A stretch of 64,000 nt of DNA, taken from Tribonema minus (taxonomy: Eukaryota > Sar > Xanthophyceae > Tribonematales > Tribonemataceae). Made by a program: the position numbers and the translations under genes. The notes under the pieces are model-generated. The model saw only the letters and a program-made list of their open reading frames with translations. It was not told the DNA's origin and ran no database searches. Positions 7,265 through 58,328 of this stretch are shown piece after piece (positions within the stretch are counted from its first letter, which is position 1; each line of letters starts with the position of its first letter). The DNA lies in assembly GCA_017506865.1 (NCBI GenBank), contig JAFCMP010000001.1, forward strand, positions 434,001 to 498,000. The letters are read 5' to 3'.

Positions 7265-7864
7265 ATGCGGCGCATCCTGCGGCAATACCTCAAAACGGGA
7301 CTGGTGGACGAGGACTACACGCCGTTTCTGGGGTCCGCCGGGCCGCCGGGGAGTCGCAGCATGGACATCGTGCTGCCTGCCGATGCCTTCCCGGTGACCG
7401 GCTACGACGACCCGACACGCCACCTACCGCTCATGGTGGACGTTACCTGCTTCGAGGCACAGGTGGCGTCGCGGGCGGCGAAGACTGCAGTAGACCCCGA
7501 GCGATGCTGCCGCGACCAAGAGGCCGCCAAGACTACCCACTATTCTGGTCATTATGATCAGAATTGCTACAAACTTGCCACTTTGGCAATAGGGTCATTT
7601 GGCAGCATCGGGGAGCAGGGGCGGAAGCTGCTGGAGGCTGTGGCGACGGAGTATGCCAGCAGGATGTCAGTGCCCGGAGGAGCGCGCCCTAAAGCTCTCA
7701 AGGGCATCGCCCTGGCGCGCTTACGCTCGGCACTGTTGGCAGCGCTCCACATGGCGTACTCTGGCCGTGTCATGACACACATGGCAGAATCCAGGGGGGG
7801 GGGGCACATGGAGGAGGACGTAGGGGAGGGCCCCGAGATGCCATTTGGCGGCGGCGGCGTTTGA
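7265..7864 (+). CDS. LINE replicase C-terminal fragment (post-RT, endonuclease-like region)
   Basis: This is a 199-codon frame ending in TGA. It has no reverse transcriptase palm motif, so it is the 5'-truncated end of an ORF2-type protein. The region around RHLPLMVDVTCFEAQ, then H-Y-S-G-H-Y-D and YKLATLAIGSFGSIGEQ, followed by a long Ala/Arg helix, matches the layout of the C-terminal domain of many non-LTR replicases: a D-V-T strand, then LA-x4-FG-x2-G-x2-G, then helix. That domain belongs to restriction-like or related endonuclease regions, and I cannot tell which subtype from this fragment. The ATG at 7265 is fortuitous. A G11 tract at 7794-7804 sits near the end of the frame. The fragment should not be functional alone. 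Confidence 0.6.
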   Translation: MRRILRQYLKTGLVDEDYTPFLGSAGPPGSRSMDIVLPADAFPVTGYDDPTRHLPLMVDVTCFEAQVASRAAKTAVDPERCCRDQEAAKTTHYSGHYDQNCYKLATLAIGSFGSIGEQGRKLLEAVATEYASRMSVPGGARPKALKGIALARLRSALLAALHMAYSGRVMTHMAESRGGGHMEEDVGEGPEMPFGGGGV

Positions 7865-7976
7865 GTGGTTGTCGTTGCGACACTTTCACACTGTCATACG
7901 ACATGTAGATTCCTTACAGCTAGATGCCAATCATCTGGGCTTTTTCGCGCCCTGAGCGAGAATTAATAAAAAGTAC
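7265..7976 (+). mobile_element. LINE copy 2 with end of ORF2, 5'-truncated
   Basis: This is the longest LINE copy in the window. It carries the C-terminal part of the replicase (7265-7864) and then the 3' UTR block shared with the other copies, ending AATAAAAAGTAC at 7976. It is immediately followed by copy 3 with no spacer. The flank ACATGCGG occurs before copy 2 and after copy 3, as expected if both entered at the same short target. Confidence 0.75.
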
Positions 7977-8144
7977 AGGAGGACGTAGGGGAGGACCCCG
8001 AGATGCCATTTGGCGGCGGCGGCGTTTGAGTGGTTGTCGTTGCGACACTTTCAGACTGTCATACGACATGTAGATTCCTTACAGCTAGATGCCAATCATC
8101 TGGGCTTTTTCGCGCCCTGATGAGCGAGAATTAATAAAAAGTAC
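7977..8144 (+). mobile_element. LINE 3'-end copy 3 (168 bp)
   Basis: It begins at AGGAGGACGTAGGGGAGGAC, exactly abutting the end of copy 2, and runs to the tail AATAAAAAGTAC. It is almost identical to copies 2 and 4 apart from a 3-bp TGA insertion in the CGCCCTGA-TGAGCGAG region. It holds only 3' UTR and the last few codons. Confidence 0.8.
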
Positions 8145-8154
8145 ATGCGGCTCT

Positions 8155-39200: not shown

Positions 39201-40177
39201 GCTAGGTTGAACTCTCAGAACTTCGGAATGCCTGACTCAACGGTATCGTTGCCTATCAGTGATGGTCAACCCCGTAGGTAGTGGTGTACTGTCGGACTTA
39301 TTGGATCTAGGCTACTAGTACTATCATAATGATGATCTGGGTTGTTCTTCGCGCCCTCGCGGAGAATGAACAAAAAGTACTACTAGTATAATACTACTGG
39401 TAGTACTTTAACTTGTCAACTTCCGTAAAGTTTGTCTAGCCTACCGGTAGTCATACGTGTTGTCTACTGTAACCGTTGTGACAATACTACTTGTATTAGT
39501 ATCTTGAACTTCTTCTAGAAGGTGCGGAATAGGGTCACAGCTTTCCGCCCGCGGGCCTCAACTTGAAGCGGAAGTAAATTATTTGAGAATCAAACTGAAG
39601 TATACTTATAACTACTAGTATAGTCTTACTAGTAGACTAGTAGTCACTGGTAGTCACGGTGGCCGGCTTATGAGTTCAAGTTTTTGCTCGTAGTTTCAGT
39701 GCCAGTGGACAGTCACTGTGTTCGAAATAGTTCGGAAATATCGTGTCCAACTCCAAGTTGAAGAACCGATCGGTCATCACGTGCTAAGCCTTATGTGCCG
39801 TAGTACGCTGTCACTACCACATGATCATGCCATCAGTGATGAGAATGACTCAGTCAGACAGTCACTTAGTCAGATCAATCACTGTCTATGTACGAACAGT
39901 TTTAAAATCAAGATATATGCATCACATGTCCCGTTCCATCAAAGATGCTGCTACGTGCTGTCCTACATAAGCAACTGGAGCTTGAAGTTCTCGTCAGCAT
40001 GCGCGAGGGGAAGCCGCGGCAACCTCCAAATGCGTTTGATAAAAGTGCAAGCAGTTGACGCGAGAGAAGCCCATCACTTAGAGCACCTACCTCAGCTTGA
40101 GCCGCGTTGGTGACGCTCGTCAGCAGCGCGAACGACAGCAGCAGCAGCCGTTGCAGATCCACGCCAGTTGCGCGCAT
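33256..40177 (-). CDS. Secreted SGNH-type hydrolase, 3' end not found
   Basis: Minus-strand exons join in frame: 40177-40091, 36915-36591, 35308-34773 and 33633-33256, giving 442 codons and then a GGG|GTGAGT donor, so at least one more exon is expected. Exon 1 (MRATGVDLQRLLLLSFALLT...) is a signal peptide ending GAG|GTAGGT. The SGNH blocks are complete: SIGILGGSISI (Ser nucleophile), NGARAGTGS (oxyanion Gly), AVAEFTLNDG (Asn) and LDGLHPSLA (Asp-His). SGNH enzymes are esterases or lipases, often acting on acylated polysaccharides; the substrate here is unknown. After the hydrolase domain, exon 4 is strand-rich with a Cys pair (VFSVDADGKWHRLQLRQL, PLGPGKYTIG) and looks like an extracellular beta-sandwich. 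Intron 1 is 3.2 kb and unusually AT-rich. Intron 3 holds a telomeric array. Confidence 0.75.
34021..34054 (+). repeat. Interstitial telomeric repeat (CCCTAA)5
   Basis: TTAACCCTAACCC... is an uninterrupted array in SGNH intron 3. On the gene's own (minus) strand it reads TTAGGG. The flanks show no direct repeat. Confidence 0.95.
35395..35605. repeat. Tandem pair upstream of SGNH exon 3
   Basis: GTGTTTGGAACACGGCGCCG, then AAGCAAAGAAGTACCGTTGGAT, at about 35402-35445 recurs about 145 bp on as GTGTTTGGAACACAGCGCTG, then CAGCAGAGAAGAGCCATTGGAT. The pair lies in the intron near the exon-3 acceptor. Confidence 0.8.
37905..38126. repeat. Tandem duplication with ACTTCAAC motif differences
   Basis: Two units of about 105-115 bp (37905-38008 and 38010-38126) share CAGCTGGTGGT and TCCACAACCAAC. 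They differ where the second unit has extra or changed TTGAAG/CTTCAAC words: an 8-bp ACTTCAAC insertion after CAACCAAC, TCAACTTGAAGTTGA in place of TCATTGACAAGTTGA, and ATGTTGAAGTTAC in place of GTGGTAAGGTTAC. They lie in SGNH intron 1. Confidence 0.75.
39337..39381 (+). mobile_element. LINE 3'-tail relic
   Basis: GATCTGGGTTGTTCTTCGCG, then CCCTCGCGGAGAATGAACAAAAAGTAC, matches the last 45 bp of the LINE 3' end found elsewhere in the window, with several changes. It is an old, extremely short copy in SGNH intron 1. Confidence 0.65.
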
Positions 40178-42297
40178 TGCCCTGAAGCCACGAGAGGCAC
40201 GTCGAATGAAAAAAATCAATGCCCGCTCGTCGGTGTATACTAAGGCGAGGGTTGTTTACAAGTAGGTCACAATGGTCATCATCAAGGGTAGAGTCACTGT
40301 AGGAGTTCATGACTAGGCTATCTTTGCCCTAAAGACAGAGTTGGGACATTCCAGGCACCTGAGGAGTCACAGACATTGACTGTTAAATGCACTACTGTAG
40401 TGCATCTCGCATCTGACAAGCGGTGTACACCTTCCTGGCACCATATGGCAGCTGGTGACTGTTGTGGCGGCAGATTGTACCAAAGCTGAAATTGTGCGTT
40501 TTTTTAACTTAAAAGCACAAGTCGGACCAAAAACATGTAATCTCAGCATTGGCAAAATTAAGAGTCCAGGTTTCGAGCCAGACGCAACTGCTATCAGGGT
40601 GTGTCATGCTCTGAAATGTTCATGAATGAACAAAGGCACGTCATGCTTGCACAAGGGCCAGGGGATAGGGCTACGGTCACCAACCCTAGGTCTGAAGCAA
40701 GACTCGTGAGTAAACTCGCGAATCCACAAAAGCGAGTTCAGTTTAGGCGTTTCTGTGTCTACAGGTTGTGAAGTGCTGTAGTATGCATGTTTCATACACC
40801 TGAAGCAGTTTGATTACTAGTAGTTGCAATCGTGTGTCAAGTGATGTCGAATATTGCCATGATGTTGCAAACCTCTGCAGCTATTCATAAAGAACACATG
40901 GGTTCACCAAGCCTGATGAAAAACAGCTGCAGCGCATTGGCAGCACAGATGTAAGCTGCAAGAGTGCTGAATAAGCAAGCCCCCAAGCGGCATCGTATCC
41001 ATTATGGGCAGAGCAAACAAGATGTTGCATTTACAAGCGAAATACTTACAGAAATGGCAAGCTGCACCAGGTCGGCAGTCTGCGCACAGGGGGTGTACAG
41101 ATTCACATGTGTAACTTCAACTTCAATGACACACATAGCTTCGAGGCAGTCGAATGTATGCACGCCGCCTCTCTCCTAGTCCGCTCTGCCTGTACACGGT
41201 TATTTCAGTTCCTGACGCAATGATGTGCATTGCCCGCCGAGCAGCTCATACAAGCGACTTCAACCAGCGCCTTAACATTGCGCTGCGTCAGAGCCCCGCG
41301 CCGCCGTGCCTAACCTGGCTAAATCTTACCAGCGCTCTGTACACATGAGGAGCGTCGCGCAACTCGCAGTAATTCCTGTCGTGTGCGACCATTCGGGCAC
41401 CGCCCCTGGCGCCGTGCGGAAGGGATTGCTTAAATGTCAGCGGCGGCACTCGCTGGCCATCAGGAGCTCGCTCTGCGGTGGCCGAATTTGAGAATCACGC
41501 CTCCCACTGATGAAGCAGTCGAGGCCGCCAGAGAGGCACTGCGGCCTCAACGCCCCGCTGTCGCCCCTTTGGCCGGTCAGCTCGGCGAGGCATGTGCTGA
41601 GCATAGCTGCAGAACGGATTGTCGCTGCGTCAGCACCAGTGGGCGTATGTGCGCTGGCGAGCGCACTGCCGCATGACGCATGTTCGCCGTTGCAGGCGTC
41701 GCGGTGCACCACCGCAGCACGCAAGCAGAAGCTTGGAGGCATGTGGCTTGGACACATGCGCTCTGCCGTCACGTGGTGCTGGCAGTGTGCCGGGCAGGGA
41801 GGCAGCTGCGCGGAGTACGCGGGCCTGAGGCTGAGCACCGCTGCATGCGCGTCCGTGGTGAGCAACGCTGCACCCGCGTTCATGAGCTGTCACTTTGTTG
41901 ACTCTTGCTGGCGCCTGGGGTGGCGCGTCATGTACTATGTAGAGCAGGCACGACTGCCGTGCACCAACGCAGGCTTGCGCTGCGCCTCCGCCTGGTGCCG
42001 CCAGCGACCAGCGGCACGCGCGACGCGCAGCGGCACGCGCAGACTTGGCGGGCCCCATACTTGGCTGGCTCTGAGCAGTCTGTACGGTCAGGCACTGGAG
42101 CGCCGGCAACTGCTCTGCACAGCGTCCCTGCGCCAGGGCCTGCGCCAGCAGCCGGTGCGCATGCGCGCCCGCAACTGCAGCGCCCGCGCCGGCTCCCGCC
42201 GCCTGCGCGCTGCCCCCATGTGGAGCCCCTGGCGCCCCCCTCCCCGCGCCCACATACCTCAAGGGGCTGAGAGGTGAACAAGGGACGCTGCTACATA
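40178..42297. other. Intergenic region between two minus-strand genes
   Basis: It runs from the SGNH start codon to the stop of the PX-GOLD gene, so it holds the promoter of the former and the 3' UTR of the latter. Overlapping long frames at 41.4-42.3 kb on both strands are Ala/Arg/Cys-rich, as expected of GC-rich noncoding DNA, and show no domain. Confidence 0.5.
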
Positions 42298-45200
42298 TCA
42301 CACGGACGCGCGCTGTCGCGCCTCGGCCTGGTGCTCCGCGAGCAGGCGGCGCACGCGCGCCTGCAGCTGCAGCACCTGCGCCTCCAGCTCGTCCTCCATG
42401 CGCTGGCTGTCGCCGTCGGGGAAGGGGCTGCGGCGCACGTCCTCGCGCAGCTGCTGCTGGCGCTCGCGCAGGTGGACGAGCTGGCGCGAGAGCTGCGGCA
42501 GCGAGCAGCGCGCGACGCAGAGTGATGTCGAGAGTAGGACTACGTGTGTGAGGGGGCACTGCCTTGCAGACAAGAGGGCTGCGCAGAGAGCAGCGTGACG
42601 CAAAGTGACCTCGCGGGGCAAGGCGACTGTGAGCGAGTGCTGCCTTGCAGGCGAGCGCTGTGAGGCAGAGTGGCCTGGAGCAAGGCTACTGTGAGGGAGC
42701 GCTGCCTGGAGGCGAGTAATGGGAGGCAACGAGCAGCGACGCAGCTACCAGGTTGCGTGATACCTGCGAGTCCGCTGTCTGCAGGCGAGCGCGGCATGGC
42801 ACAGCGGAGCACCTAGGACAGGCGTTGCACTGGCTCGCACTGGCGGGGAGAGGCTGCACCCATGAGATCATCGCACGGTTGCTGCTGGCGCCGGCACAGG
42901 TGCATATGCGGCCGCGAGAGCAGCGGCGAGCGAGGCAGATGCCCACTGCTGCACAACTAACAGTTACAGGCACGTCATCTTCAGGTTTCAATGTGAGCAG
43001 GCTACTTCAACAGTGAGCGTGACCATGCGCTAATGTGTGTAGACACGAAAGCAGCGCAGGCCTGAGGACGGCGAACACACCTGCTTGATGACGCTCGGGC
43101 GGTCATACGTCTCCGCCTTAACGGCAGCAGCAGCAGCCGTCGTCGCCATCACCGCGCCCGCCTTCCCTCCCCCCTCCCGCGCCCCCTCCCCCGCCCCCTC
43201 CCCCCGCCCCCCAACCCCCACACTCGGGGGGCGCACATCCCCCACCTCCCCCCTCTCCCCTTCATCGTCGCTGGCGATGTCGGAGGCGGCGCTGCGCTCG
43301 CTGCCTGTCGCGCTGCCGCTGCCGGCGGCGGACGCGGCGGCGCCGCCGTGGTTGCCACAGCGGCGGAGTTCCGCGACGAGGACGCGGCGCTCGGCGCGCA
43401 GGCGCTGCAGCTTGGCCTCGCAGATGGCGAGCTGTGCGCGGCCGGGGGCGCCCTCGCCCTCCAGCTGCATGCACGCGCGTGGAAATACACAGTGCCGTGC
43501 GGCGGGGGGGGGGGCGCAAACGCGTGTGTTATAGAGTTAGGGTTTAGAGTAAGGGTTAAACCTTGATGTGTATGCTTGTGTGAAACTGGGCCCTGAGCAC
43601 GGCGAACAGCGGCTGCTGCGATGTCGGCGCCCTCGCCCTCCAGCTGCACGCGCGCGCTTAACAACGGAGCCGCGGTTGGGGTGTGTTGTATGGTGAGGGT
43701 GAGGGTTAGGGGTCAATTGTAACGTTCATGCTGATGCGGGGAGCAGTGCTAACAGTGGATGTTGCAAGGTCGGTGCCACCGCTGGCAAGCAGATGCATGC
43801 GTCAATTGTGAGGTTCGTACGGGGAGATGCAGGGATGTACAGCATGGCCCGATACCGCCATGGCCGGTGATTTGCAGGCGGTGGTGTTGCAGTTTCTGCC
43901 TTGCACATATGCATGTGCCACACCCTACATCCGTCTCATGGCAAAAACAGGGGGTCAAGATAGCGAATTTGAAAGGTGAGGGGGACAACTCAAAGGTGAG
44001 GGGGACAACTCAGTTTGTAAGAACTGTCAGGGTGCTAGTCTACAACCTTTGCAAGCGATGTGTCCAGCATCACAGCGCATTTCAACTGAAGTGCAAGTAA
44101 ATGTTGAACTACGCAGCGCACCTTCTTCAGGCGCGTCTCCGCGGCCCGTTGCATCATGCGCGCCTCCTCCGCCTCCGCTTGCACAGCACTCAGCTGCAAA
44201 CAAACGACGCAGACACAGAGCGTGCAGACAAAGGAACCGTTAACTTGTCAACATCCAAATCCGCATCACTATCAATGTGGCCACGGCTGGCAGCTCAAAC
44301 ACACAGGCGTTTTACGCACTGCGCTTGCGCTGCACAAAGGTACTTGTGTTGAAGTTGGATGGGCACAATTGATCCAGCGCGTAACGCTGACTGTGAAGTA
44401 GATGCAGCTGCAATAAGCGAGCACGGCATGGGAACAGTACAGACGCAGCTGCGCAACATGGGCGCACACGGCTGGCCAGAAAGAGCTGCGGACGGCATTG
44501 CATACGGCCCCACAGGGAGAGTCACATACGCAGGGAGAGTCACACCACGTAGTTGGCACAAATAACCCTCACCTCAACCCTAGCCCAACTAACCTCAACT
44601 GTGATGCTCCAACCAACGGCATGCTTGTGCACCATGATCGTGCAGTGCAGTGCAATCTGCGCTGCGCGCGGCCTTTGCATCGCACTTCAAACTTCAATAG
44701 CGCCAGCGCCCATTCGCGCTGCCGCACCACCGCATTGCGCCGCGGCGGCCCACCTGATCCAGAAACGCCTTCTTCTGCTGCCGCAACTCCACCACCAGAA
44801 GCCGCTTCTGCGCTGACAGTTTTGCCGTTTCCGCCTCCACTTCCGCCAGCGCCACGCGGACGTCCTCCGATTCTGCCCGCGCCGCCGCCGCCTCCTGCGA
44901 TGGGGCGGCGAGCGAGTAGTGCATTTGAGATGACGCGGAGCGGTAGCGTCGTGATGGGGGTTGCGTTGTTGTTCTGAATGTATTGATGCAATTCTGCAAT
45001 TGAAGTCGTGGCCTGACAACACCGTGCACAGTATGTGAAACTCTGGTTTGTATGCCAGGCCTCGCCCGACCCCGACCCTAATCCCAGCCCTAACACTGAC
45101 CCCAATGCCAGCCCTAATTCCATAATAACCTTGACCCCTCACTTCGACTCACATGTAAAGCCCCATACCCTGTACTGATCTGAGTGCGCTGGTGCACATC

Positions 45201-48200
45201 AGTTTGGATTAGGACACGAGTTGCCGTCACACGTGCCTTGATCTCTTGGCACATGAGACAAGGATACAGGAACATGCTCGGAAGACTGCACAGTCACAAA
45301 CTGCCAGGTGTTGGTCATCAGCACAGGAGTTTTTTGGCTCATGCGCCCTTGGCTGTTGATGTTCATCACACGCACGGGCAAGAGCCGTACCGACACTTGC
45401 ATGATATTATCAGATGCGTTCTCAGCGCAGTGGTGCCTGTGAAAGGGCGAAAAAAGGGTTTTCGCCAGCACGATTAAACTGGTATTTCATGGTGAGCAGC
45501 TCATCAGTTCTGCCATCCGCAAAACGTCTCTAATGAAATATACAGTACTTACTTGGAAGTATTTATCTAACCTCGAACCTAATCCTAACCCTAACCCTAA
45601 TTCAGGGTCGTGCAACCAAGCACAGTGCTCAGCACACGCGCCGCGCGCACCTCTTTGAGCCGCTCCTGCGCCTCCCTGTCGCCCGCTGCGGCCACGCGCT
45701 CTGCCAGGCGCTGGCGCTCCGCCTCCAGACGCTCCACGGCGGTCTGGCAGCACAAGGAGCATGTGCGTAAACAGCAGTAGGTTAGGGGGCATGTGTAACA
45801 GCAGTACTTGGGGGGCACGCACAACAGCAGTACAGGGCAGCACAACAGCAGTACTTGAGGTGCCTGTTCAAGTTCAGCACATAGCTTGCAGATGCCGACA
45901 GCACATCATGCCATAAGCTGCGCACCAGCAGTTTGGCGCAGTTCACGTTAGGGTCAGTACCATCAGCTGTGCCAGTGTCAATAGCTCAACATCAATCAGC
46001 GACAGGATATGTGCCACCAGAGGCTCCGCCGGCCGCTGGCGCACCGCTCTGCGCAGAGCAGCCTGCTGAGCGCGCGCACCTGCGACTGCTTGAGACTTAG
46101 GGTTGAGGTCAGGGGTCGTGTCAGAGTGAGGGTAAAGGGGAGCACACCCCGCCATGCCACCGGCTTCAACTTCAAGTCAGTGCTTCCGACTCTTTTGCGC
46201 CCGCCACCGCCACCGTCATCGCGATACTGCGCGCCTGCGAGCGCCCTGAGCGCGGGGCGCGCGTGCGGTGCTGAGCAGCGCTGCATCAGGCTGCGCAGCC
46301 GAGCGCTGGGCGCTCTGTTCGCGCTCGGCGGCCGTTGGCGCGCGCCCTCTGCTGAGGCGCACCCTGTTGAGCAATGCTGTACGAGACCCTGATGCTGCGC
46401 GCTGATGATCTGCCTCTCTGTTCGCCGCTATGCGCGCGCCTCCGGCTGCACTCAAGCACCCGCGCCGCCCGCCTCAACTTCAACTCAGTTCTCAAACTCA
46501 AGTCAGTGCTGCAAGGTCAACCCTTGAGCGCCTGCCGCCATTACCGTCATCGCGGCACTGCGCGCCTGTGAGCGCTGCACGTGCATCGCGCGGTGCTGGG
46601 TAGCCGCAGTATCGGGCCACCCCGCCATCACCATCATCGCGGCACCGCCCGCCTGCGAGCGCCCGAGAGCTCCGTGAGGACCGCCCGCACACTGAGGCAC
46701 GCGATGCTGAACAATGCTGTAATAAACCCTAATGTTGAGCACTGACCTGCAAGCGCTTGAGCGCTGCGCGCGCGTCCTCATGGACGTGCGTCTCCGTCTC
46801 TCGAGCGCAAAGGCATCGTCACTTTAAAGGGGGCTGAGCAACAAGGAAAACATGACCTTGGACAAAACAGAACAGCACGGGGGCTCCCTACGTGGTCGCC
46901 CACCGTAGTACTAGCTCCGCTCAGGGGTGCTTTTGACTTCAACATCGACGATCGGACGACTGCGCACCTGCGAGCGCTTGAGCGCTGCGCGCGCGTCCTC
47001 ACGGGCGTACTTCTCCTGCGCACTGAGGCGCGCGGTACTGAGCAATGCTGTACGAGACTGTACCGCTGAGCACTGACCTGAGAGCGCTTGAGCGCTGCGC
47101 GCGCGTCCTCGTGGGCGTGCTTCTCCGTCTCCAGTGCGCCCACGGCGCGCGCGAGCTCGCTCTGGATGCCGCTGCGCGCGACCTGCCACACGCTGCGCTC
47201 CGCCTGCAGCAGCTCGCACTCGCGCCGCGCAGCCAGCAGCCTGCGAGGCGCAGGGGATATGGGAGAATTCCATGTAAATCAGTGCGACGCCGAACGTGAA
47301 TGCAGTAGGTAGATGAGGGAGGAGGTGAAGTTGAGAAAGTGCCGCTCGTGCTCCTGCCGTGCAAGCCGTCGGCAGCGCGGACGAGCGCCTCGTTAACGCA
47401 TGAGATGACTGCCTTGTCGCGGCGCGCGGCCAGCAGCCTGCGAGGCGCGGGGGAGATGGAGATTCCATGTGATTCAGTGCGATGACGCTGAGCATAATTG
47501 CACTACGAGGACGAGGGAGGAGGTGAAGTTGAGGGAGTGCCGCGCGCGCTGTCGCCGCGCAGAGTGCCGTTGGAGCCAAGATGAGTTCGTACGCGCATAG
47601 ATAAAAAACTCCAGAGCGTTTTGTTGACACAACAAACTTATTCGAAGCATGTACTTGTGCGCTTGCTGGCGCGGCTCGACTCCACACAAGTGCTTCGTGC
47701 ATATGGTTCAAGTAGTATCTTCCAAAGCACTTTGAGGCATGTGCTTCAAGCGCTGGGCACTGCTGCGTCGGGCACACATCTGCAAAGCGCAGCAAGATAA
47801 CCAAGCGCGCACGTCTCATCCGCCTGCAGCTGCGCCCTCTCTACGCCGTGCGGAATACCAAGATGAGATGGAGCAATCAGCCAAGAACCAATGTGCTAGC
47901 TGCTGCGGCCGCGGTCACACACCTCTCCTCCGCCTGCAGCTGCGCCCTCTCTATGCCGTGGGGAATGCAAGCGCAAGTCGTCGTCACCCGGATGAAGTGA
48001 ACCAATCAACCAAGAACCCATGCGCTGGCTGCTGCAGCCGCTCTACGGTCTCTCGATTCGTTTCCACGCAAGCTAACAACGCACGCGCACCTCTCCTCTG
48101 CCTGCAGCTGCGCCCTTTCCGCGCTGTGCGCCTCCTGCAGCGCCTCCTCCCTCTCCAGCGCCATGTCATCCGCGCGCCGCGTCATCTCGCACAGCTCCGC

Positions 48201-49621
48201 CCGTGTGCCCTGCCAGCCCTCCTGCGCGCTCGCGACGTCCGCCTTCGCGCGCTGCAGCTGCGCCAGCAGCACCTGCACTCAACACCGCGCACCGCAACAC
48301 GCGTTGAGGCTCGGCTACAATGGAGCGGTGCAGTGTCAGCAGCACCTGCCCGCAGCGCCGCGCGCCGCAACACGCATCGAGGCTCAGTTACATAGAGCGG
48401 TGCTCTGCGTTCGCGGCTAGACGGAGTGAGCAACGCCCCAGAGTACTCGACTAGCACCTGCACTAATTGAAATCAAGCATTAACATGAGTGTAGAGTACT
48501 ACTACTACTACTTCGCATGCAGTGTGTCAACAAAGCAGTCTTACCTGCCCGCCGCGCTGCGCACCGCAACACGCATCGAGGCTCATTTACAGAGAAGCGG
48601 TATATAGGAGCGGTGCACTGCGCCCTCAGCTAGACGGAGTGAGCAATGCCCAGAGTTTGCGCATGTCGCCACCTGGCCTCTCATCCATGATGCCTATGAG
48701 CACTGCTCTGAAAGAAGACATGCGGCTGTCGTCTTCGTCTGCGCTTCAAAGCGCCCAAAATGCGGTGCGCCCGCAGCTAGAGCGAGCGGCAAGTGTCCCG
48801 AAATGCTTACATCACGTCAGTGCACATCCTGACAGGCTCTCCTGTATGCTGCCTGCTGCATTAACCCAGTGAGCACTGCCAGAAAAAGAACTGCAATGCT
48901 CACCTTCGTCTGCACTGCAAAGCACACATGATGCGGTGCGCCAACGGCTAGAGCCAGTGGCAAGTGTCCCGAAATGCTTGCATAATGTTGATGTCTACAT
49001 GCTGTCAGGGCCTGCGACCTGCTGTGGTGCCTAAAAACAAAACGACACACTAGGCGCTGCACTATGAAGCACCAGCGCTCACCTTCGTCTGGGCTTCCGC
49101 TTGCGCCCGCCGTGCGCTCATGCCCGCCAGCTCGTCCTCCAGCCTCTGTAGCACGCCTCAGCACACAACATCACAGGCAGCAACAATCAGCGCGGCGGAC
49201 GGGAGGCCGAAACTGTCAGGAAACAGGGACTTGTCGCCACGCGCGGGTGGTGGTGCTGAAGCAGGGCTCCACTGTCGGTGGCGGGGGAGCGGTCTCGTTG
49301 CTGCAACAGGTGACGCTCCCTGCTGCAGTCGCCACCTTCCGCGCTGGCTGCATGGGACTCTAAAACCGTCAGAAAACACATGCTTGTGACTGAACTCCAC
49401 GTACGATTGGATGTGCAAAAGACTTGCTCTGCGGCCTGGTTGTGAGGAAGCAGTTTCATTGCTATCGGCGGCACAGGTGACACGCCCTGCTGTAGTAGCG
49501 GTCGTGCCGCCCAATCCAGCCAGGAGGCATTTGGAGCGATTTTTGCAGTGCTATGGCTGCTCAGTCGCTGCCAGAGATGCACCTGCGGGCCGTCAAATTC
49601 GCGCAGAATTTTCAGGTAGAT

Positions 49622-49660
<39 letters not shown>

Positions 49661-52600
49661 AATGCCTACGTTGGTTCAAATCTAACCCGGCCCAATAAAA
49701 AATCATAAAATTGATATTTTAAATTATATTAGTCATTGTTTATGGTAGGGGTAGAGGGAATTTCCAGTGGAGCCTCAAAAAATGCCAATGAACAATAAAA
49801 AAAAATAAAATATGTGGGGCATTTTTTCTGATTTATTTCTTTTTGTTTATGGGCTTGTTTGACCAAAACCACCAACATAGCGAGGCTACATTGCCTGCGC
49901 AGACGCGCGCGGTCTCGGCTTGGCGACGGTCTTAGTGGCACGCTGTACGTAGGTCATGTCTAACCCTAGGTCATGTGCTAGCCCCAACCCTAAGCATATG
50001 GCACATGAGGCATCCGTTCGACAAAAGCACGGCACGCAAGGGCAATCGTGCTTTCGTCAGGGACCGCGACATCGATGGCATGCACTTCAACACCTACTTC
50101 AACTCCAAGTACCACATCGCCAACCGCAAGTACGCACCTCGTAGTTGACCAGGAGCGTGGCGACGCGCTCCTCGTACTCCGACAGCCCCCCCCCCTCCCT
50201 CCCGCCCCCGCCCCCCTCCCCCGCGGCGGGGGGCAGCGCCGCTCGCCCCCCCCCCGCCCCCCCCTGCCCCCCCCCCGCCCCCAGCCCGTAGTACGGCGAC
50301 AGCCTCAGCACGTTCCACACGAGGTTATAAGCGGAGCGCGTGAGGCTAAAGCGGCCGGCAGGGGGGTCGCCCCCCCCTGGGGACAGCGTGGCATCGCTCG
50401 TCGCCGCGTCCGAGGGCGCCGCGGACGCGCGGAGCGCTGCAACGTCGACGCTGACGGCAGCGCCGGGCGTGATGCGCTGCTGCGCGGAGCCGCCGCGCGC
50501 CGCCTGCAAGAGGGGGGTATGCGGCAGCGGAGGAGGAGAGTTCGTTGACGGCGGTTCAAAAGGGGCTCTGCATGAGCGCTGCGCGGGCGCTGCTGCGTGG
50601 CAAGGGCAGCGGCGGCAGTTGAAGGGGGGGCGCAGCAATGACAGTCGCACGCTGCAATTTGATGGCCTGGTTATGAGCGGGGCATAACCCCAGCCCGACT
50701 TTGACAATCTCCCCCTATATCACGCAACGCCATAGGACAGAAGACATCACAGGTCTGCACACCACCTTCGTGTACGTCTCATTGTGGCCTTCCGAGGGTA
50801 AGGATTAGCTTAGATTGCTGCGTGCGCATGTCCGGAACGCCCTCCCTCTGTCGTTTCCAGCCCCCCACCCCCCCCTCCCCCTGCTGCATGAACGCGCACA
50901 CACAGCGCATGTGCATGCCCCATGCCGCCGCCGCGTTACCCCCTGCCACCCACCCACCACAGTTCATCCGGCAATCACCACACTGTCCCCGCTCACCGAA
51001 GCCTTGAAGGCGCAGGCGTCTGCGGCCTGAACGGCGGCGCGCATCGCAGCAGCGTCCACCGCCTCCGCGACAAAGTACAGGCGCTTGCCGCGCAGGCGCG
51101 AGTGGCCGTTGCCCCAGCGCAGCGCGCACAGGCCGTCCGCGGCGGACGTGCAGCTGCCCTGCACGCGCGCGCCGCCGGGGTAGCGCGTGCGCCGGTGCAC
51201 GAGGACGCTGCGCGGGGCCTGCGGCAGTGGCGCAATGGGATGAACACATGGTGAATTGTGTGAATTGTGGTTGCAGGTGATCTAAGGAACGCTTCGTGTG
51301 CACGGTGTTGTGAGTACAAATCTGCCCGGCACGCGCGCGCCGCCGGGGTAGCGCGTGCGCCTGTGCACGAGGACGCTGCGTGGAAACTGCGGCGGTGGAG
51401 CGATGAGACACACGGTCAATTGTGTGCATTGTCATTTTTCATACGTGTAGGGGCGAACACGTGGTGGATTGTGTGAATTGTGGTTGCAGGTGATCTACGG
51501 AACGCTTCGTGTGCACGGTGTTGTGAGTGCATAGCTGTGCTGCACGCGCGCGCCGCCGGGGTAGCGCTTGCGCCGATGCACGAGCACGCTGCGCGGGGCC
51601 TGCGGCGGGGAAGGGAGGGGGTAAACACGTCATCGCAAATAATGATACATGAAAGGTTTGGGTGAATCAAAGGGACCGGTGGAGTGCATGTCTCGGCAAA
51701 CTGGTGAGTTGTGGTCCAATGACACGCTCCGTGTGCACAGTATCGTGAGCGCAATTCTTGCGGGCGCTGCCAGGGTAGCGCGTGCGCCGGAGCACGAGCA
51801 CGCTGCGCGCGGCCTGCGGCAGTGGCGCGATGAAGCGAAGACATGGTGAATTGTGTAAGTTGTCGTCGTTGGTGATCTGCAACACACTTCGTGCAACACG
51901 CTCTGTGTCTACGGCTATGTGAGTGCATAGCTGCGCTGCACGCGCACGCCGGCGGCGCAGCGCGTTCGCCGCTGCATGAGGACACTGCGTAGGGTATGTG
52001 TATGTGTGACACTGCGTAGGGTATGTGTGTGTGGGGGGGGGGTGCTCGCGTCACACATGGTAATCGTCTAGGTTGAACTTGCATTGAGCTACTCCTTAGT
52101 GATAGAAATAAAGAAAGGCATAGGGTTGCTAACCCTAAGTGCGCACTCGCATGCACAATGCTCGCATTGCGATGCTGGAAGGGATGGCCATTTGCGTGCG
52201 CCGGTGCAAAGCGCGTAGAGTGCATGAGCGTCGGGCTGAGGCATGAAAGGCGCAGCTGCTTGCACGTGCGGAGCGTGGCACCATGCACACAAACAAACGG
52301 AATGAACTCTGTCAGACCAAAACACGGTCTGTTCACTAGCTGGAGCAGGGATGCGCAACCGCATCGGCGGCGTTGCCGCGCAGCTTGAAGCTCATGTCCC
52401 GCAGAGCATAACCGTGGCGTTGGCAGCGTCAGCATCATGACATCATAACCTACGCATCACCAGGACGAGAGCGCCGCCACTGAAGCATCAACAGCATCCT
52501 GTTTCGCTAGAGACATTTGTGCATTGCACTGTTTTGGGCTGTGCTTGAAGCAACAGCAGTGCAATAATCAAATTCCTGGATTAACCTCAACTTCAACTCA

Positions 52601-54139
52601 CCCCTTCCACGCCGTCCCCAGTACAACCCCCCGCCCCCTCCGATGCGGGGCTCACGTACCCCAGCCAGCCGCGCTGCCGCCGCCCCTCGCCGGACACGAG
52701 CGCTGAGCGCTGGTGCACTTCACACGGCGTAAATTCAACTGTGAAGTCGATGTCCAGCCCGCAGTCCACGTCGAACCGCCACGCGACGCTTTCGCCCTGG
52801 GGCAGCGTATGAAGTTTTGTGTTTGTTGAACGTGGTCAGTATCATGACTCGTTGCATTGCTGAGCTCATAATCGTGCGGGTAGCGCTGATGCACACTGCA
52901 CGTGAGCGCAAGTATTAAATGTGAAATCCAGTGACCGGTGCTTGCAGCGTCCGCGTCACAGCGCCGAGCAGCGTCCTCATTTCAAACTGCAACAGTAGCA
53001 GGCATATCACAGGCTCGTTGCACGGCTCAGCTGATCACCAGTGCAGCGGCATACAGTGTATTCATATATATACGCCCATGCGCTCACCTTCAGTATCACC
53101 AGCTCCCGCGAGTACTCCTGCCGCCGCGGCACGTACACGCAGTGCGGCGCGAAGGGCTGTAACAGGAACCCTATCGCCGTCTGCGGCTCCCCGCGCCCCC
53201 CCGCCTCGCCCCCCTCCCCCTCCCCGCCCCCCGCGCTCCCCCCCTCAGGCGGCGACCCCCCGTCGCCCCCCAGAAACCCGCTGAACTTGGCGCTCGCCAG
53301 CACCGCGGGGACCGCCAGCAGGCGCTGCATGTAGGAGTTGAGCGCTGCCGCGGTGGCGTCGGCGTCGCCGGGCGCGAGCGTGGGGAGCGGCGGCAGCAGC
53401 GCTTTCACGGCGTCGTCGCAGCCGAATTCGTCCGTCAGGAGGAGGTAGTGCAGGCGCTGGAAGTCGCTCCACGCCTTCCTCAGGCACGCGTGCTTTGCCG
53501 GGGGCGGCGGCGGCGGCGGCGTGCCTGGCTGTTGAGGGTCTGGTGAGGCGGCGAGGTGGATGATGACCTCGAACCAGGGCTCCTGCGCGTGCAGCATTTA
53601 CGCAGTCATCAAAACTTGCGTCATGCTTGTGTCAATGGGGGCGCAATGGTGAGAGACAACAGAAACAGGACGGGGCGCGTGACACGTGTAAGTCGCAGAA
53701 CCCCCCCGGTCCTAAGTGCATATAGCTGCTAAAAGCTGCTAGGCGGCACTGATGCTTGCGACCAAAACGCTTGGGAAGAAAAACAGGCTTGCTGCATGGC
53801 TTAAGATGTGAAAGACGTGGTGTTTCAAAGTAACGAACCATCTTCAAGTTCAAATTATATCACCTGGTCGTCGATCTGGTCTATGATGCTGCTCTCCAGC
53901 TCGCTTGCCTCCATTTCCCTGACATAGTTCACTATTCCAGCGAGCTCTTCCTCCGTGACAGTCGCCGTGGTGGCCGCTCCTTTTGCCACATCGCTGTCCT
54001 CGTCCTTGTCACGTTGTGTCTCCTCTTGCTCCTGCTCCATGCCTGTCCCAACTGGCAGTGTCAAACAAACCTGGAAGGCGCCAGCGGTTGCGGCAGGATG
54101 CAGCGCTCCTCTCTGAGGCTTCGTTTCCGGCTCCGACAC
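42298..54139 (-). CDS. PX-GOLD domain protein with long C-terminal coiled coil
   Basis: Fifteen minus-strand exons keep frame: 54139-53864, 53582-53088, 52796-52656, 51218-50997, 50503-50138, 49145-49083, 48272-48091, 47240-47078, 47015-46968, 46797-46747, 45743-45651, 44894-44754, 44193-44122, 43464-43081, 42492-42298; about 960 aa. The N-terminus is acidic. Exon 2 encodes a PX domain: EPWFEVIIHLA, LRKAWSDFQRLHYLL, LLPPLP, and AVLASAKFSGFL. Exons 2-4 form a GOLD beta-sandwich: ESVAWRFDVDCGLDIDFTVE, ALRWGNGHSRLRGKRLYF. From exon 5 on the chain is a coiled coil (LEDELAGMSARRAQAEAQTK, LEAERQRLAERV). PX domains bind phosphoinositides and GOLD domains serve in membrane traffic, so an endosomal or Golgi tether is plausible. 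Exons 9 and 10 are near-copies of the end of exon 8 and may be optional. Almost every intron carries copies of exon edges. Confidence 0.75.
42500..42800 (-). repeat. Decayed tandem copies beside the acceptor of the last PX-GOLD exon
   Basis: About five units of some 55-70 bp share GCGAGCGCTG, GACGCAGAGTG and GGGGCAAGGC-type words, and lead back to GCAGCGAGCAGCGCGCGACG beside the last exon's acceptor. They are too diverged to act as exons. Confidence 0.6.
43440..43665 (-). repeat. Copy of the acceptor edge of PX-GOLD exon 14
   Basis: The real edge at 43446-43480 (plus strand GGCGCCCTCGCCCTCCAGCT, GCATGCACGCGCG) has a copy at about 43624-43656 (GGCGCCCTCGCCCTCCAGCT, GCACGCGCGCG). This includes the acceptor AG and about 17 bp of exon. 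Confidence 0.85.
45576..45602 (+). repeat. Interstitial telomeric repeat (CCTAAC)n
   Basis: AATCCTAACCCTAACCCTAA lies about 50 bp beyond the donor of PX-GOLD exon 11 (GAG|GTGCGC on the minus strand). On the transcript strand it reads TTAGGG. Confidence 0.9.
46220..47078 (-). repeat. Serial copies of the 3' edge of PX-GOLD exon 8
   Basis: On the plus strand, GCGAGCGCTTGAGCGCTGCG, then CGCGCGTCCTC, recurs with its donor at about 47079, 46968 and 46750. More decayed forms lie at about 46650 and 46235 (CTGCGAGCGCCCTGAGCGC). The copies at 46968-47015 and 46747-46797 keep frame, an acceptor and a donor; those further left have lost the GT donor. AGCAATGCTGTACGAGAC recurs between units. Confidence 0.85.
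47231..47535 (-). repeat. Copy of the 5' edge of PX-GOLD exon 8
   Basis: GCCAGCAGCCTGCGAGGCGC, then GGGGAGATGG..ATTCCATGT, recurs about 198 bp apart (47231 and 47429). Each is followed by GAGGGAGGAGGTGAAGTTGA. The distal copy includes a usable-looking acceptor on the minus strand. Confidence 0.85.
47800..48130 (-). repeat. Three copies of the 3' edge of PX-GOLD exon 7
   Basis: CCGCCTGCAGCTGCGCCCTC occurs near 47819 and 47931, and as CTGCCTGCAGCTGCGCCCTT at the real exon near 48099. The first two are followed by TAYGCCGTG, then ACCAATCA.CCAAGAACC-type sequence, so the unit is about 110-165 bp. Confidence 0.8.
48262..48625 (-). repeat. Copies of the 5' edge of PX-GOLD exon 7
   Basis: CAGCAGCACCTGCACTCAAC at the real acceptor is followed by CAGCAGCACCTGCCCGCAGC about 70 bp on. 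A third version lies near 48542. Each leads into CGC(A/G)CCGCAACACGC(A/G)T, GAGGCTC and GGAGCGGTG. Confidence 0.8.
48730..49090 (-). repeat. Copies of the donor edge of PX-GOLD exon 6
   Basis: GCTCACCTTCGTCTG occurs at about 48899 and at the real exon near 49078; a decayed form (GTCGTCTTCGTCTGCGCTTC) lies near 48727. Each upstream copy is followed by a shared intron block ending AAGTGTCCCGAAATGCTT, with a unit of about 180 bp. Confidence 0.8.
49625..49694 (+). pseudogene. Mitochondrial LSU rRNA and tRNA fragments (nuclear insertion)
   Basis: CGAAGCCCCGGTGAACGGCG, then GCCGTAACTATAACGG (49625-49660), matches the conserved domain IV/V core of bacterial-type 23S rRNA; E. coli differs by one base as I recall it. 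The next bases, 49661-49694, look like a tRNA 3' half: a T-arm GTTGG-TTCAAAT-CTAAC and then an acceptor strand CCGGCCC plus A. The tRNA 5' half is missing, so this is a mosaic. AT-rich sequence to about 49860 may be from the same source. It sits in an intron of the PX-GOLD gene. Confidence 0.8.
49695..49865. other. AT-rich block joined to the organelle fragments
   Basis: The sequence is far richer in A and T than its surroundings (TTGATATTTTAAATTATATT and similar) and returns to GC-rich DNA at about 49870. It is most simply a continuation of the organelle-derived insert. No gene was recognised in it. Confidence 0.55.
51160..52010 (-). repeat. Five-copy tandem array of the PX-GOLD exon-4 acceptor edge
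   Basis: The unit of about 180-210 bp holds the first 60 bp or so of exon 4 (plus strand GCCGCCGGGGTAGCGCGTGC), the acceptor, and intron words TGGTGAATTGTG and ACGCTTCGTGTGCACGGTG. Copies lie near 51170 (real), 51340, 51550, 51765 and 51940. The nearest keep the peptide PRSVLVHRR(T/K)RYPGGAR and an acceptor, and the farthest is badly decayed. Confidence 0.9.
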
Positions 54140-54224
54140 ACGTTTTTTTTTAAAAAGAGAGAGAGTTCAAGTTGCATTTGAAGTTGTGAGTTGAGGGGGG
54201 GTGCTGTGTTTGTGTGAGGCCCCA
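54140..54224. promoter_or_regulatory. Bidirectional promoter region between head-to-head genes
   Basis: Only 85 bp separate the ATG of the PX-GOLD gene (minus, 54139) from the ATG of the dehydrogenase gene (plus, 54225). It contains a T10/A5 run, (GA)n, and CAAGTTGCATTTGAAGTTG, an inverted CAAGTTG/TTGAAG pair. Both 5' UTRs and the core promoter must fit here, or transcription starts inside a neighbour. The role is inferred from position only. Confidence 0.6.
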
Positions 54225-56486
54225 ATGCCGGCAGCGCTTTCGCTGGCTGATGCAGGCTGGCTCTGGGCCCTGCTGCCATTGGGCCTGGCCGCGGCGGCGG
54301 CGGCAGCAACGACTGGACGCCGCCGCCGAAGGCAAGTAACATGCCATCTGCAACTGGTACTACTTCTGGCGGTGGTGCTGCCTCATTGCATCGATGCTTT
54401 CGTGCATGCTCCTGCTGCTCCGACTAATGCGATACAATTCGGCTGGGGGGGCCGTCAAACGGCGCTGATGACCATAGATACGATATCAAGGTAGGAGAAA
54501 GCACTGGCATGTTGCCCCAAGATGTACGCGTTTTGCTGCAGACAGTCATAATGCGTCATACCCCACCTGCTGCTGCTGTGCAGCGCAACGAGGGTAAAAT
54601 GCCATGAGCCCACACGTGAGCGCTCCAATGTATGAAAAATCCCGTCTGCACTCAGGCTGCTGACGATGTGACTGCTGCCTTCTCTGCCCCTCCCCGACTA
54701 CAGCCCTACGGCGCATCTGAAAGCCAGGGTAGTGTGGGTGACAGGTGCGTCTTCAGGACTGGGCGAGCAGCTGGCCATACAGGCAGCGGCGGGGGCGCCC
54801 AAACTCCTCATCATCAGCGGTCGCAACGAAGACGCTCTGCGCCGGGTAGCGGAGGCCTGCGCAGCCGCTGCAAGCCCCGCTGCCACCGACTCCAGGGTGC
54901 TGGTGGTGCCGTTCGACGTGAGCGACGCGGGCGCGCGCGAGAGAGCGGCCAAGGAGGTGCTGGAAGCGGCGGGGGGGGCGGTGGACGTGCTGGTGAACTG
55001 CGCAGGAGTTAGCGTGCGCGCCGCCGTGGAGAGCACTAGCATGGAGGTCGATAGGATGGTGAGCGCGCGTGAGCGTCAGTCCGAGGTGTGGCCACAGTGG
55101 TGCTGCGTCAGTGACGTAAGCACCACCTTTGATATACTTCAGGTTTACGCATGCGATCCGCTGCCCCAGCCAGGGCGATGTGCACCGCCCAAAAGCGATG
55201 CATCCAGCGCACATGGGACGTGCGGAGATGTGAGCGCGGCCTATGCTGCTACCACGTTGTGTTGACAGGCACACACCTTGTGAAATGTCGAATGGGAGTG
55301 GCTGAACGAGGCCATGATATGAGTGCGCGACCTCTGATGCTGCCACATTGTGTTGCAAGGCGCACACCTTGTGCAATGCCGAATGGGAATGACTAAATGA
55401 TGCTATGATGATTGCACGCGCGCCAAGCGCAACGCCAAACGGTGCTACAGCTGGCTGGCCAGCCAGCGTATACTTCTGATGTTCACTTTTGTGAAAGATT
55501 GAAAGTGGTTAGTGGCAAGTCAGAACATGCTCCGCGGTATGCAGCAACAGTACTGAAGAGTCAGCATAGTGCGCCGTTCAAATAATGACCCGCGTCTTCA
55601 GCAAACTGCTCATGCCGGAACGCCACCGTTGCTGCGCCCTCTGTTGTGCCCCGCAGCTCATGGAGACCAACTTCTACAGCGCGGTGGACCTGACAAAGGC
55701 GGTTCTGCCAGGCATGGTCAACCAGAAGTCGGGCAGCATCATCGCCATCAACAGGTGATGTGCCAATCCATTCACCACCAGCATTGCACTGTATGCACTG
55801 TAGAGCACTGCCGTTAACTTGGAGCGGGACGGCCCATTCGAACCATTCTGATGTGTGCATGACATCACAACTAGTAGGTGACGTGTCAACCCATTCAAAC
55901 ATGCACTGCAGGGCGTGGCGAACAGTACAGAGGTAGGGCAGTGGCCCTTGCAACAGATGTGGGGCGGGGGGGGGCGCAGGCTCATGTGCACTATGCATCC
56001 GACAACGACAAGCAGTCGGCTTACAACAGCAGATACGCCAGCATCATCCCCTCACCCCCCGCCCCCCCTCCGCTCCCCCCCCCTAACCCTAACAGCGTGC
56101 AGGGCAAGCTCGGCCTCGCGTACCGCGCGGGCTACAGCGCGTCCAAGCACGCGCTCTCCGGCTACTGCGACGCGCTGCGCGCGGAGGTCGCGCCACACGG
56201 CGTGCGCGTCCTGAGCGCCTGCCCCGGCTACGTGCGCACGGCGCTCTGTCTCAACGCGCTGCGCGGCGACGGGTCGCGCCACGCGCGCATGGACGCGAGC
56301 ACTGCTGCCGGCGCGGATCCCGCCGATGTGGCAGCGAGCATCTGGAGGGGGGACGCCGAGGGGCGCGGGGAACTGGTGCTGGCGCCGCTGTACGTGCGCG
56401 TGGCGTGCGTGCTGCGCGCGCTCGCGCCGTGGGTCGTGTTCCGCGCAGCGGCGCGGCGTGCGGAGAGGGAGGCTGCTGACTTGTAG
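54225..56486 (+). CDS. ER-type short-chain dehydrogenase/reductase (DHRS7-like)
   Basis: Four exons are in frame: 54225-54331, 54704-55058, 55657-55754 and 56096-56486; 316 aa. An N-terminal hydrophobic segment (WLWALLPLGLAAAAAAA) followed by RRRRR suggests a membrane anchor. The Rossmann core is classical: VVWVTGASSGLGEQLA (TGxxxGxG cofactor loop), VPFDVSD, VLVNCAGVS (NAG), then IAINSVQGK with the catalytic Ser 13 residues before the Tyr of YSASK, and CPGYVRT. Such enzymes oxidise or reduce sterols, retinoids or other lipid alcohols with NAD(P)H. DHRS7-like proteins are the closest type I recall; the substrate is unknown. Intron 1 appears to use a GC donor (CGAAG|GCAAGT), supported by phase. 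Intron 3 ends in telomeric repeats (CCCTAACCCTAACAG). Copies of donor edges lie in introns 2 and 3. Confidence 0.88.
55222..55410 (+). repeat. Tandem copies in SDR intron 2
   Basis: Two units of about 95 bp, near 55222-55316 and 55317-55410, share GTGAGCGCGGCCTATGCTGC/GTGCGCGACCTCTGATGCTG, CACRTTGTGTTG and GCACACCTTGTG.AATG. Their starts resemble the real exon-2 donor region ATGGTGAGCGCGCGTGAGCG. Confidence 0.75.
55751..55920 (+). repeat. Copy of the SDR exon-3 donor edge
   Basis: CAGGTGATGTGCCAATCCAT, then TCACCA...ATGCACTG, at the true donor is echoed about 122 bp on by TAGGTGACGTGTCAACCCAT, then TCAAACATGCACTG. The GT is still present in the copy. Confidence 0.75.
56081..56095 (+). repeat. 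Telomeric repeat forming the end of SDR intron 3
   Basis: CCCTAACCCTAACAG directly abuts the exon starting at 56096. The CTAAC units match the branch-site consensus and the last AG is the acceptor. Confidence 0.85.
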
Positions 56487-58328
56487 CGGCGCGTTGGCTG
56501 CGGCGGTTCATTGGGGGGGTGGGGGGGGGGGGGCGCAGGAGGGGAGGAAGGGGGGGCACAGGGGGCGGTGCCGCTGCTGGGTGTCGCCCCCAACAGGTGG
56601 CTCTGGAGTGGTGCTTGTGAGTACGCAAGCGACAGCGGCGCCACGGCGCTACGTGCTGAGGCGGAACCTCCGCCTCTGCCTGCTGCTCAGCTTGCGTGTG
56701 CCCCCGGTTCTCGAGTTAACGCTCATGCGGCGGCTGCCGACTTGAGCGGCTCGATCGCGCACGGCATTGCTCAGCGCGCACACTGCACACATGCTGCTGG
56801 TTGAAGTTGCCGCTGTCAGCACTGGCATATCGCCATTGTCTGCAGTGGTTGCTGACGCGCCGCACAGGACCTTTTGCGTCGAGGTCACCTCCGCGTCATT
56901 AGAAAGCGCGCCCAAACAGTGGCTGACTTGAACTGATGCTCAGCGTCTAGCAGATTATGGCGCCAGCCGAGCATAGAGCGCTTGGCCAATTGGGGGGGGC
57001 TGGTGTAATGTGTAGGCGAGGGGGAGCAGCCGCACCCTGCCTCCAGGGGTGTCGTCACGGACTAGCCCTGACCCCAACCCTAGCCCTAACCCTTCCAGCC
57101 ACGGGCAGGCGGTGTTGCTGACATGCCAATGGCTGGCGGCCATTGGCGGTGCAGAAGCTGTTGTGTGACCACGCGTTGCAGCCACCGCAGCGTTGGACTG
57201 CGGCATGAGCGCTTGTGCAAGTTCAAGTTCAACAACGTGTGGAACGGACACGCAGTCCATGGCGCTGATATATGCGCCATTGCTAAAATCTGGCAGCCAG
57301 ATCAGGCGGACGGTCTGATGGTCGCACAGTGCGACTGGATATCGATGCGCGCTAAACCTGAACCCTTCACCTTAACCTGCATCGCCGGCCGCAAGTGCTA
57401 TCGCCTGAATACAAAACAACATGTCCTGACCGGCGTGGATGCAACTCTGCCATCTTTTTGCTGCACTCAATTGCGCCTCTGTCAGACTGTCGTAAACGTT
57501 TGTGGAATCTGCATTGCAGCGTCCACATTCTTGATGCGTCATTGTGCATGCCGTGCATTATGTTTTCATTGAGCGCAAGTGAAGATTGGCCACATTAGTA
57601 TAGTCTGCAGTGCTGGGACATGCACCTAACCCTAACCCTACAGTAGGTGGCCAATGTGACAGTGGATTGATATGTGCACGCCCCTCGCATTGGCACGCAG
57701 GTCAACTACGTCACCCTTCAACAGCAAACATCGAGTTGCGCCAATGAAGCAGCCTTCTTGTCAGAATTTCACAACGAAGCCTCGAGCACACGAGAGCACA
57801 GCAGTGTGCAAGGCACGCGACGGCGAGGCCCGTGCAGAGCAGTAAGTTGCGCCAAGTCCATCTTTCATGTATGGAAATTGCATTCTGCAAGTGTGCACAC
57901 CATGTGCCCTGTGTGGTCGGTGCTGTGTTACCAGTAATCTTTCAAGTACAGAAACTCACTGCACGGAACAAGATGCCAACCATTAGCTTTATACACTATG
58001 CGTCGCTGCCTGTGCTCATGTGGGTGCATCCATGAAATCGATCGTACTACTGCATTATATTGCACAGTGTCAGGCTGTGTTATCGCGACTTTTGCCAGCA
58101 CAGCACAGTGTAACAACGCAAACACAACTCTGCTGAGCTCTTGCACTCATGCACAACAACTGACCCCCCCAACACATGCCGTCACCGCACCTTAAGTATG
58201 CTCTCTCCCTCCCATCGACCGTAATCATCTCACTCCCAAGTAGGTACCAGCTATGCATGACTGGACGCCCTCGCACACAGCAGAGCGCTGATTCTGCACC
58301 ACTTCGCAGGTACCTGCGCTGTGTGCCC
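56487..58328. other. Convergent intergenic region with telomeric patches
   Basis: It lies between the SDR stop and the gelsolin-type gene's last recognised codon. A G-rich run (56512-56532) follows the SDR stop. Telomere-like patches lie at 57063-57093 (degenerate) and 57625-57641 (CTAACCCTAACCCTA). If the gelsolin-type gene has a further exon it should be here, but none is convincing. Confidence 0.5.

Follow-up and report, generated by a model that had tools for sequence, protein, structure and literature searches.

Border-biased tandem duplication of exon edges as a probable route of intron growth in Tribonema minus

The window analysed here is a stretch of 64,000 nucleotides (contig positions 434001-498000) from the 158-Mb, 554-contig genome of Tribonema minus. 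The region flagged within it is occupied by a single minus-strand gene, which carries a PX domain in exon 2 (E=3.2e-05) and whose later exons appear coiled-coil-like by eye. The model of this gene is our own prediction, built from the sequence alone; it comprises 13 exons, and all 12 introns have GT-AG ends. For the PX exon of this model (53088-53582, minus strand), one protein relative at E<=1e-5 was recovered among 1317 scored candidates, namely P0001, of JGI source and with 52% identity. An Rfam scan of the window returned no match reaching the gathering score. Short telomere-like tracts were seen by eye in introns of the PX-domain gene, and telomere-like TAACCC or TTAGGG tracts also lie inside the contig, at window positions 17804-17842, 25031-25066 and 34022-34054.

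Self-BLAST of window positions 38001-58000 (E<=1e-3, low complexity masked) yielded 23 repeat pairs, all of them direct. With exon letters alone as the query, copies of exon edges were found at 5 of the 24 junctions of the PX-domain gene, namely the exon 4 acceptor, the exon 7 and exon 8 donors, and the exon 12 and exon 13 acceptors, and each of these was also recovered by self-BLAST and as a repeat family. The clearest case is the exon 4 acceptor array (51152-51990, minus strand, as are all features of this gene), in which exon 4 itself (50997-51218 in our model) is the source and four upstream copies lie at 51322-51383, 51527-51599, 51760-51813 and 51923-51989. Each of these copies consists of the intron end, the AG and 54-71 nt of exon; they are 84-95% identical to the exon and stand at distances of 168, 381, 595 and 777 nt. 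At the exon 7 donor (feature 47792-48130, exon 48272-48091) the last 29-40 nt of the exon are recopied downstream at 47923-47951 and 47814-47852, and at the exon 8 donor (feature 46166-47139, exon 47240-47078) the last 49-62 nt are recopied at 46968-47016 and 46752-46808, with other intron copies as well. The exon 12 acceptor (feature 43447-43657, exon 43464-43081) has an exact 18-nt edge copy at 43626-43643, and the acceptor of the last exon, exon 13 (feature 42399-42934, exon start 42492), has a weak copy, 71% identical, at 42830-42920.

Three further features were recovered by self-BLAST and as repeat families. The family at the exon 7 acceptor (48264-48656) has a 73-bp tandem unit with only 9 exon nucleotides inside it, the upstream copy at the exon 8 acceptor (47220-47561) holds 21 exon nucleotides, and a repeat pair (48697-48983) lies in the intron after exon 6 (49145-49083), its units including, by eye, a copy of ~9-15 nt of the donor edge. 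Overall, the gene has eight repeat families: six contain 10 or more exon nucleotides, one contains 9, and the remaining one, that of exon 6, begins 99 nt from the donor. The original prediction had named at least seven copied edges in this gene. The exon 4 acceptor and the exon 7 and exon 8 donors stand on exon letters alone, while the exon 7 and exon 8 acceptors are visible only in whole-sequence families, and the claim for the exon 6 donor comes down to a family that starts 99 nt into the intron and a short exon-like part judged by eye. The edge it assigned to an exon 14 probably corresponds to exon 13 of the present model.

Elsewhere in the window, a tandem direct repeat with a unit of ~91-94 bp (55225-55409, plus strand, self-BLAST) sits between two stretches matching the SDR family; the original prediction had extended the pattern to the RF2, thioredoxin, SGNH and SDR genes, and this repeat is what was seen of it for the SDR gene. 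The search for window repeats also returned a 165-bp tandem duplication, 97% identical, at 7812-8145 (plus strand). The unit of the latter contains the last 16 codons and the stop of an open frame, followed by 3' sequence, and its geometry reads as similar, at an apparent coding/non-coding border; the second unit has an acceptor-like TACAG just before it. A 103-bp tandem duplication (86%) lies at 37904-38092, outside genes in the rough annotation of the window. In that rough gene-finder annotation, repeated segments numbered 139 of 2368 in introns, 98 of 1652 outside genes and 47 of 845 in exons, such that repeats were no commoner in introns than in other DNA of the window; the largest repeat outside introns is the 165-bp duplication, which itself lies across a stop codon.

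Almost all of the statistics given below derive from one gene family, the kinesins, in this one genome. A Pfam kinesin search of the genome listed 132 exon-level matches, from which 20 multi-exon genes were taken, and introns were placed using a profile made from the genome's own kinesin exons together with our own spliced-alignment program, the junctions thus being predictions from protein-profile alignment. The 20 genes contain 104 introns with a median length of 712 bp, and their splice consensus is AG/GTGAG at donors and GCAG/G at acceptors (the slash marking the splice site). The best kinesin protein matches were to Chrysoparadoxa (80%), Heterosigma (73%) and Phaeothamnion (70%), which we take to group together as photosynthetic stramenopiles. 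A direct local match was found for 2645 of 18214 40-nt kinesin segments, against 5 when reversed and 17 when reverse-complemented, and chance is excluded as the source of these repeats. Using the outer 50 nt of each exon as the query, and with edges of insufficient length or low complexity dropped from the counts, a copy in the exon's own intron was found for 47 of 194 edges (21 of 99 donors and 26 of 95 acceptors). Copies were found in 1 of 157 introns on the wrong side (1/79 and 0/78) and for 1 of 71 exon interiors, the difference between edges and interiors being significant (Fisher p=2.7e-6), and controls with reversed sequence for the kinesin edge copies gave 0 throughout. Exon-edge copies in introns are real in the PX-domain gene, as had been claimed, and they occur in the kinesins too.

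A deeper search of the kinesin genes recovered 91 copies at 49 junctions (27 acceptors and 22 donors), reaching 21-90 nt into the exon (the query being cut at 90 nt) and lying 97-1123 nt away from their own junction. The earlier statement that copies always include 15-60 bp of exon is thus roughly right. The share of copied 40-nt segments drops from ~20% at the exon edge to 1 of 327 at a depth of 60-100 nt. A replication set comprising 14 other loci with 22 introns yielded copies for 7 of 37 edges and 1 of 136 interiors, and all 8 repeat families were junction-linked. Copies are concentrated in long introns: the junctions with copies rise with intron length from 1 of 30 below 450 bp, through 7 of 72 and 9 of 50, to 27 of 56 in introns of at least 1 kb. 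Copied sequence accounts for 24% of all intron bases, for 34% where the intron is at least 1 kb long and for 6% where it is shorter than 450 bp.

The copies are local tandem duplications, direct, head to tail and beside their source. The kinesin repeats comprised 195 direct pairs versus 9 inverted rows, the latter listed in both orders, and adjacency is head to tail wherever the intron part still aligns, as at 4341-4460 and 4461-4588 of locus L051; some copies align only in the exon part plus a few intron nucleotides. They lie downstream of donors and upstream of acceptors, within the exon's own intron. Repeat offsets form a hump at 100-240 and fall above 250, and in 45 of 52 junction families the smallest offset falls in the range 93-245. 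At least 45 intron nucleotides belong to the unit closest to the exon (distance minus depth, by hand). This holds even at donors, where the need for a branch point is no explanation, and none of the 91 kinesin copies stands less than 97 nt from its junction. The median depth of copies was 55-59 nt in exons of at least 160 nt, a depth at which breakpoints at exon centres are rejected, and copies tend to be slightly deeper in longer exons (Spearman 0.35, p=0.029, 38 junctions). The repeated fraction was 4.9% below 40% GC and 8.9-10.6% above, an effect too weak for GC content to be the cause.

A coding function of the copies is ruled out by frame-breaking indels and stops: the 91 copies contain 28 indels of 1 nt, 9 of 2 nt, 3 of 4 nt and none of 3 nt, together with 8 stops, and they are not open and in frame. 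Mismatches by codon position numbered 123, 88 and 256 (467 in total), and the excess at third positions may result from silent change in the exon and from GC-rich third positions. At the exon 7 acceptor of L058 (reverse strand), the copies at -111 and -224 nt carry 5 and 6 differences, all of them silent. Over the same alignments, substitutions amounted to 11.2% between exon and copy and 16.3% between intron and intron, near the ratio of ~0.6 expected if the exon is held while the copy drifts. In 73 of the 91 copies the alignment comes within 2 nt of the junction; among these, the splice dinucleotide was kept as AG in 36 of 42 acceptor copies and as GT or GC in 28 of 31 donor copies. The original prediction that copies are more decayed with distance from the exon finds weak expression in these data, in that the nearest copy beats the farthest in 15 of 21 arrays and identity falls with distance at Spearman -0.20 (p=0.058).

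The exon part of the copies is better kept than simple decay predicts. Mean identity between exon and copy (82 pairs) was 0.87 in the exon part and 0.61 in the adjacent 40 intron nucleotides, and between copies (62 pairs) 0.81 and 0.62, with 0.45 expected by chance in both comparisons. Part of this gap may be ascertainment bias, because it was the exon part that served to find the copies and because more indels accumulate in introns; gap openings per 100 were 0.74 in exon-derived parts and 5.24 in intron parts. The exon 3 donor of L042 (reverse strand) goes beyond such bias: copies of its 66-nt edge at +233 and +533 nt are 97-100% identical, the one 533 nt away in 66 of 66 nt, while the intron side is 78% identical or cannot be aligned. 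Possible explanations for this case are gene conversion from exon to copy or recent copying that ended at the splice site. Gene conversion as a general rule is not needed given the paired substitution rates, though the better-kept exon parts and L042 leave room for it.

It had been proposed that ordinary repeats would not centre on exon borders, a premise that is incomplete, since random tandem duplication combined with purifying selection on exons would leave copies there as well. If duplications of 60-300 bp arose uniformly, those internal to exons would be purged, those crossing a junction would be tolerated, and the conserved exon would keep the pairs recognisable. Such a process predicts copies of exon edges, on the right side only and without coding constraint, all of which are observed, and for this reason the border bias had to be assessed by simulation. 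The null was our own, with simplified mutation and no large deletions; exon lengths were the real ones, intron lengths were scaled, duplication lengths were as measured and the detectors were identical. One of 16 simulated settings produced as few deep copies as the data (0.002 vs 0.003 observed), and the 165-bp duplication of similar geometry noted above lies over a stop codon instead of a splice site, both as uniform duplication would allow. However, the observed ratio of repeated segments at exon edges to those in exon interiors, ~1.3 (0.20 vs 0.15), compares with 0.22-0.91 across the 16 settings, the ratio of exon edge to intron edge was ~2.2 against at most 1.65 when simulated, and exon depth exceeded 75 nt in 10% of junctions with copies against 14-41% in seven simulated settings. 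Junction-linked families numbered 52 of 76 (51 of 76 by a slightly different rule), a fraction of 0.67-0.68, whereas the simulated fraction was 0.18-0.39 in seven settings and, over 60 replicates, had means of 0.29-0.47 and a maximum of 0.59. Counting the 52 families with at least 10 exon nucleotides and 12 more, 64 of the 76 cross a junction or end within 40 nt of one. Of the 24 intron-only families, 12 are no farther than 40 nt from a junction, where 3.1 are expected; with the two that touch a junction removed, the excess is 10 of 22 vs 2.98 at 40 nt (P=1.4e-4) and 12 vs 4.48 at 60 nt (P=1.5e-4), with a weak excess at 20 nt (4 vs 1.49, P=0.054). The cleanest test of border bias is provided by introns from which the exon letters had been removed. 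Of 62 intron families so defined, 45% are no more than 10 nt and 73% no more than 40 nt away from a junction, compared with 14-25% and 24-35%, respectively, in uniform simulations, the highest of 32 replicates reaching 48% at 40 nt. The bias therefore does not stem from exon conservation alone. The 40-nt segments just inside introns were not more repeated than deeper ones (~9% vs 8.5-24%), and the bias is seen in where families begin, not in sequence coverage. Uniform duplication filtered by selection is consequently an unlikely account of the whole pattern, and the original proposal of a recurrent, local, border-biased duplication process that lengthens introns is supported, with the simulated null under-predicting the bias.

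Other origins appear less probable still. Extra splice-site copies could be retained as useful, whether they serve as spare sites, as decoys or as alternatives, or aid recognition of the true exon in the manner of exon-like enhancers, and the frequent retention of the dinucleotide, together with exon-derived parts that have fewer gap openings and are more alike between copies, is in keeping with this. However, dinucleotide retention is approximately what a divergence of roughly 10% would give, the scarcity of indels may only reflect a scarcity of simple tracts, the frame is unconstrained and interrupted by stops, and the substitution ratio is near the neutral expectation, all of which make retention for use very unlikely. 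The copies could also be remnants of a Rogers-type intron birth, in which an AGGT-bearing exon segment is duplicated and the piece between becomes an intron. Tandem duplication is a known route to new introns (PMC4974935), but this model puts the upstream exon end directly before the acceptor, whereas the copies here stand at a distance from their own junction and often include intron sequence, and it is regarded as highly improbable. Insertion of mobile intron elements (introners) with target repeats, although introners are reported from 5% of species in one survey (PMC9860276), can be given almost no weight, the repeated sequence being each exon's own edge and confined to its own intron. An assembly artefact is barely conceivable, given that the copies diverge from the exon by 0-28%, occur on many contigs in positions that track gene structure, and form repeat pairs that are nearly all direct.

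The reading preferred here is that introns of this genome grow by recurrent, border-biased, head-to-tail tandem duplication, mostly of ~95-240 bp, and this is considered quite probable. A tandem duplication with one end near a splice junction would put a copy into the intron; the original splice site would stay in use and hence the protein would be unchanged while the intron lengthens, and further duplication of the same border unit would build arrays. The zone around the junction would then act as a mutational hotspot at both exon ends. With somewhat less confidence, but still favoured on balance, exon-intron borders can be viewed as genome-wide hotspots at which one breakpoint of a short tandem duplication tends to fall, such that introns of this algal lineage lengthen by copying their own exon edge again and again; such a process would differ from transposons, introners and models of intron birth. 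Least certain is what sets the breakpoints, which might be chromatin-phased intermediates of replication or repair. The candidate cause favoured among these, though held only tentatively and with low confidence, is ligation of unprocessed Okazaki-fragment flaps with ends phased by the exon nucleosome. Flap ligation is described as producing duplications in mutant mouse cells (FEN1 R192Q or Jmjd1b-/-), with most mutations near Okazaki-fragment junctions (PMC12632346, preprint); that system, however, is one of mutant mammalian cells, and the cited passages of the preprint make no link to exon edges. Fill-in of staggered nicks and transcription-linked breaks are other candidate causes, and break repair or template switching, put forward in the original prediction, likewise keeps the rank of a suggestion.

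Gao and Lynch (2009) reportedly found that gene-internal segments are often duplicated and that such events can alter intron structure, and a concentration of breakpoints within tens of nucleotides of splice junctions is not known to be part of that account. The open full-text literature, outside which most subscription papers lie, yielded no paper on border-concentrated duplication as a general process of intron growth. A single duplication over an intron end and the adjoining exon edge has, however, been described in the potato RdRp gene (PMC4974935), in a paper that also calls internal gene duplication common, citing Gao and Lynch. The potato unit likewise comprises the 3' part of an intron with its branch site, polypyrimidine tract and AG, followed by the 5' part of the next exon, and an internal 83-bp duplication is also present in intron 1 of that gene (PMC4974935). 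For one event, the anatomical resemblance is close. In the description given in PMC4974935, the potato case is a single event in which activation of a cryptic donor gave rise to a new intron, unlike Tribonema minus, in which many genes are affected at donors as well as acceptors and the copies form arrays. Introners likewise represent a recurrent, genome-wide change of intron content but spread one sequence to many genes, whereas introns of Tribonema minus each copy their own exon edge (comparison with PMC9860276).

The copied splice sites and exon edges represent a hazard for annotation, as they mimic exons, and our own gene finder called several of them as such. The origin of intron sequence and the lengthening of introns are old questions for which transposons are the usual answer. 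In Tribonema minus, the process can be seen at many ages, with the slowly changing exon serving as the reference for each copy. Should the border bias prove mutational, it would link gene architecture to DNA breakage or to errors of replication.
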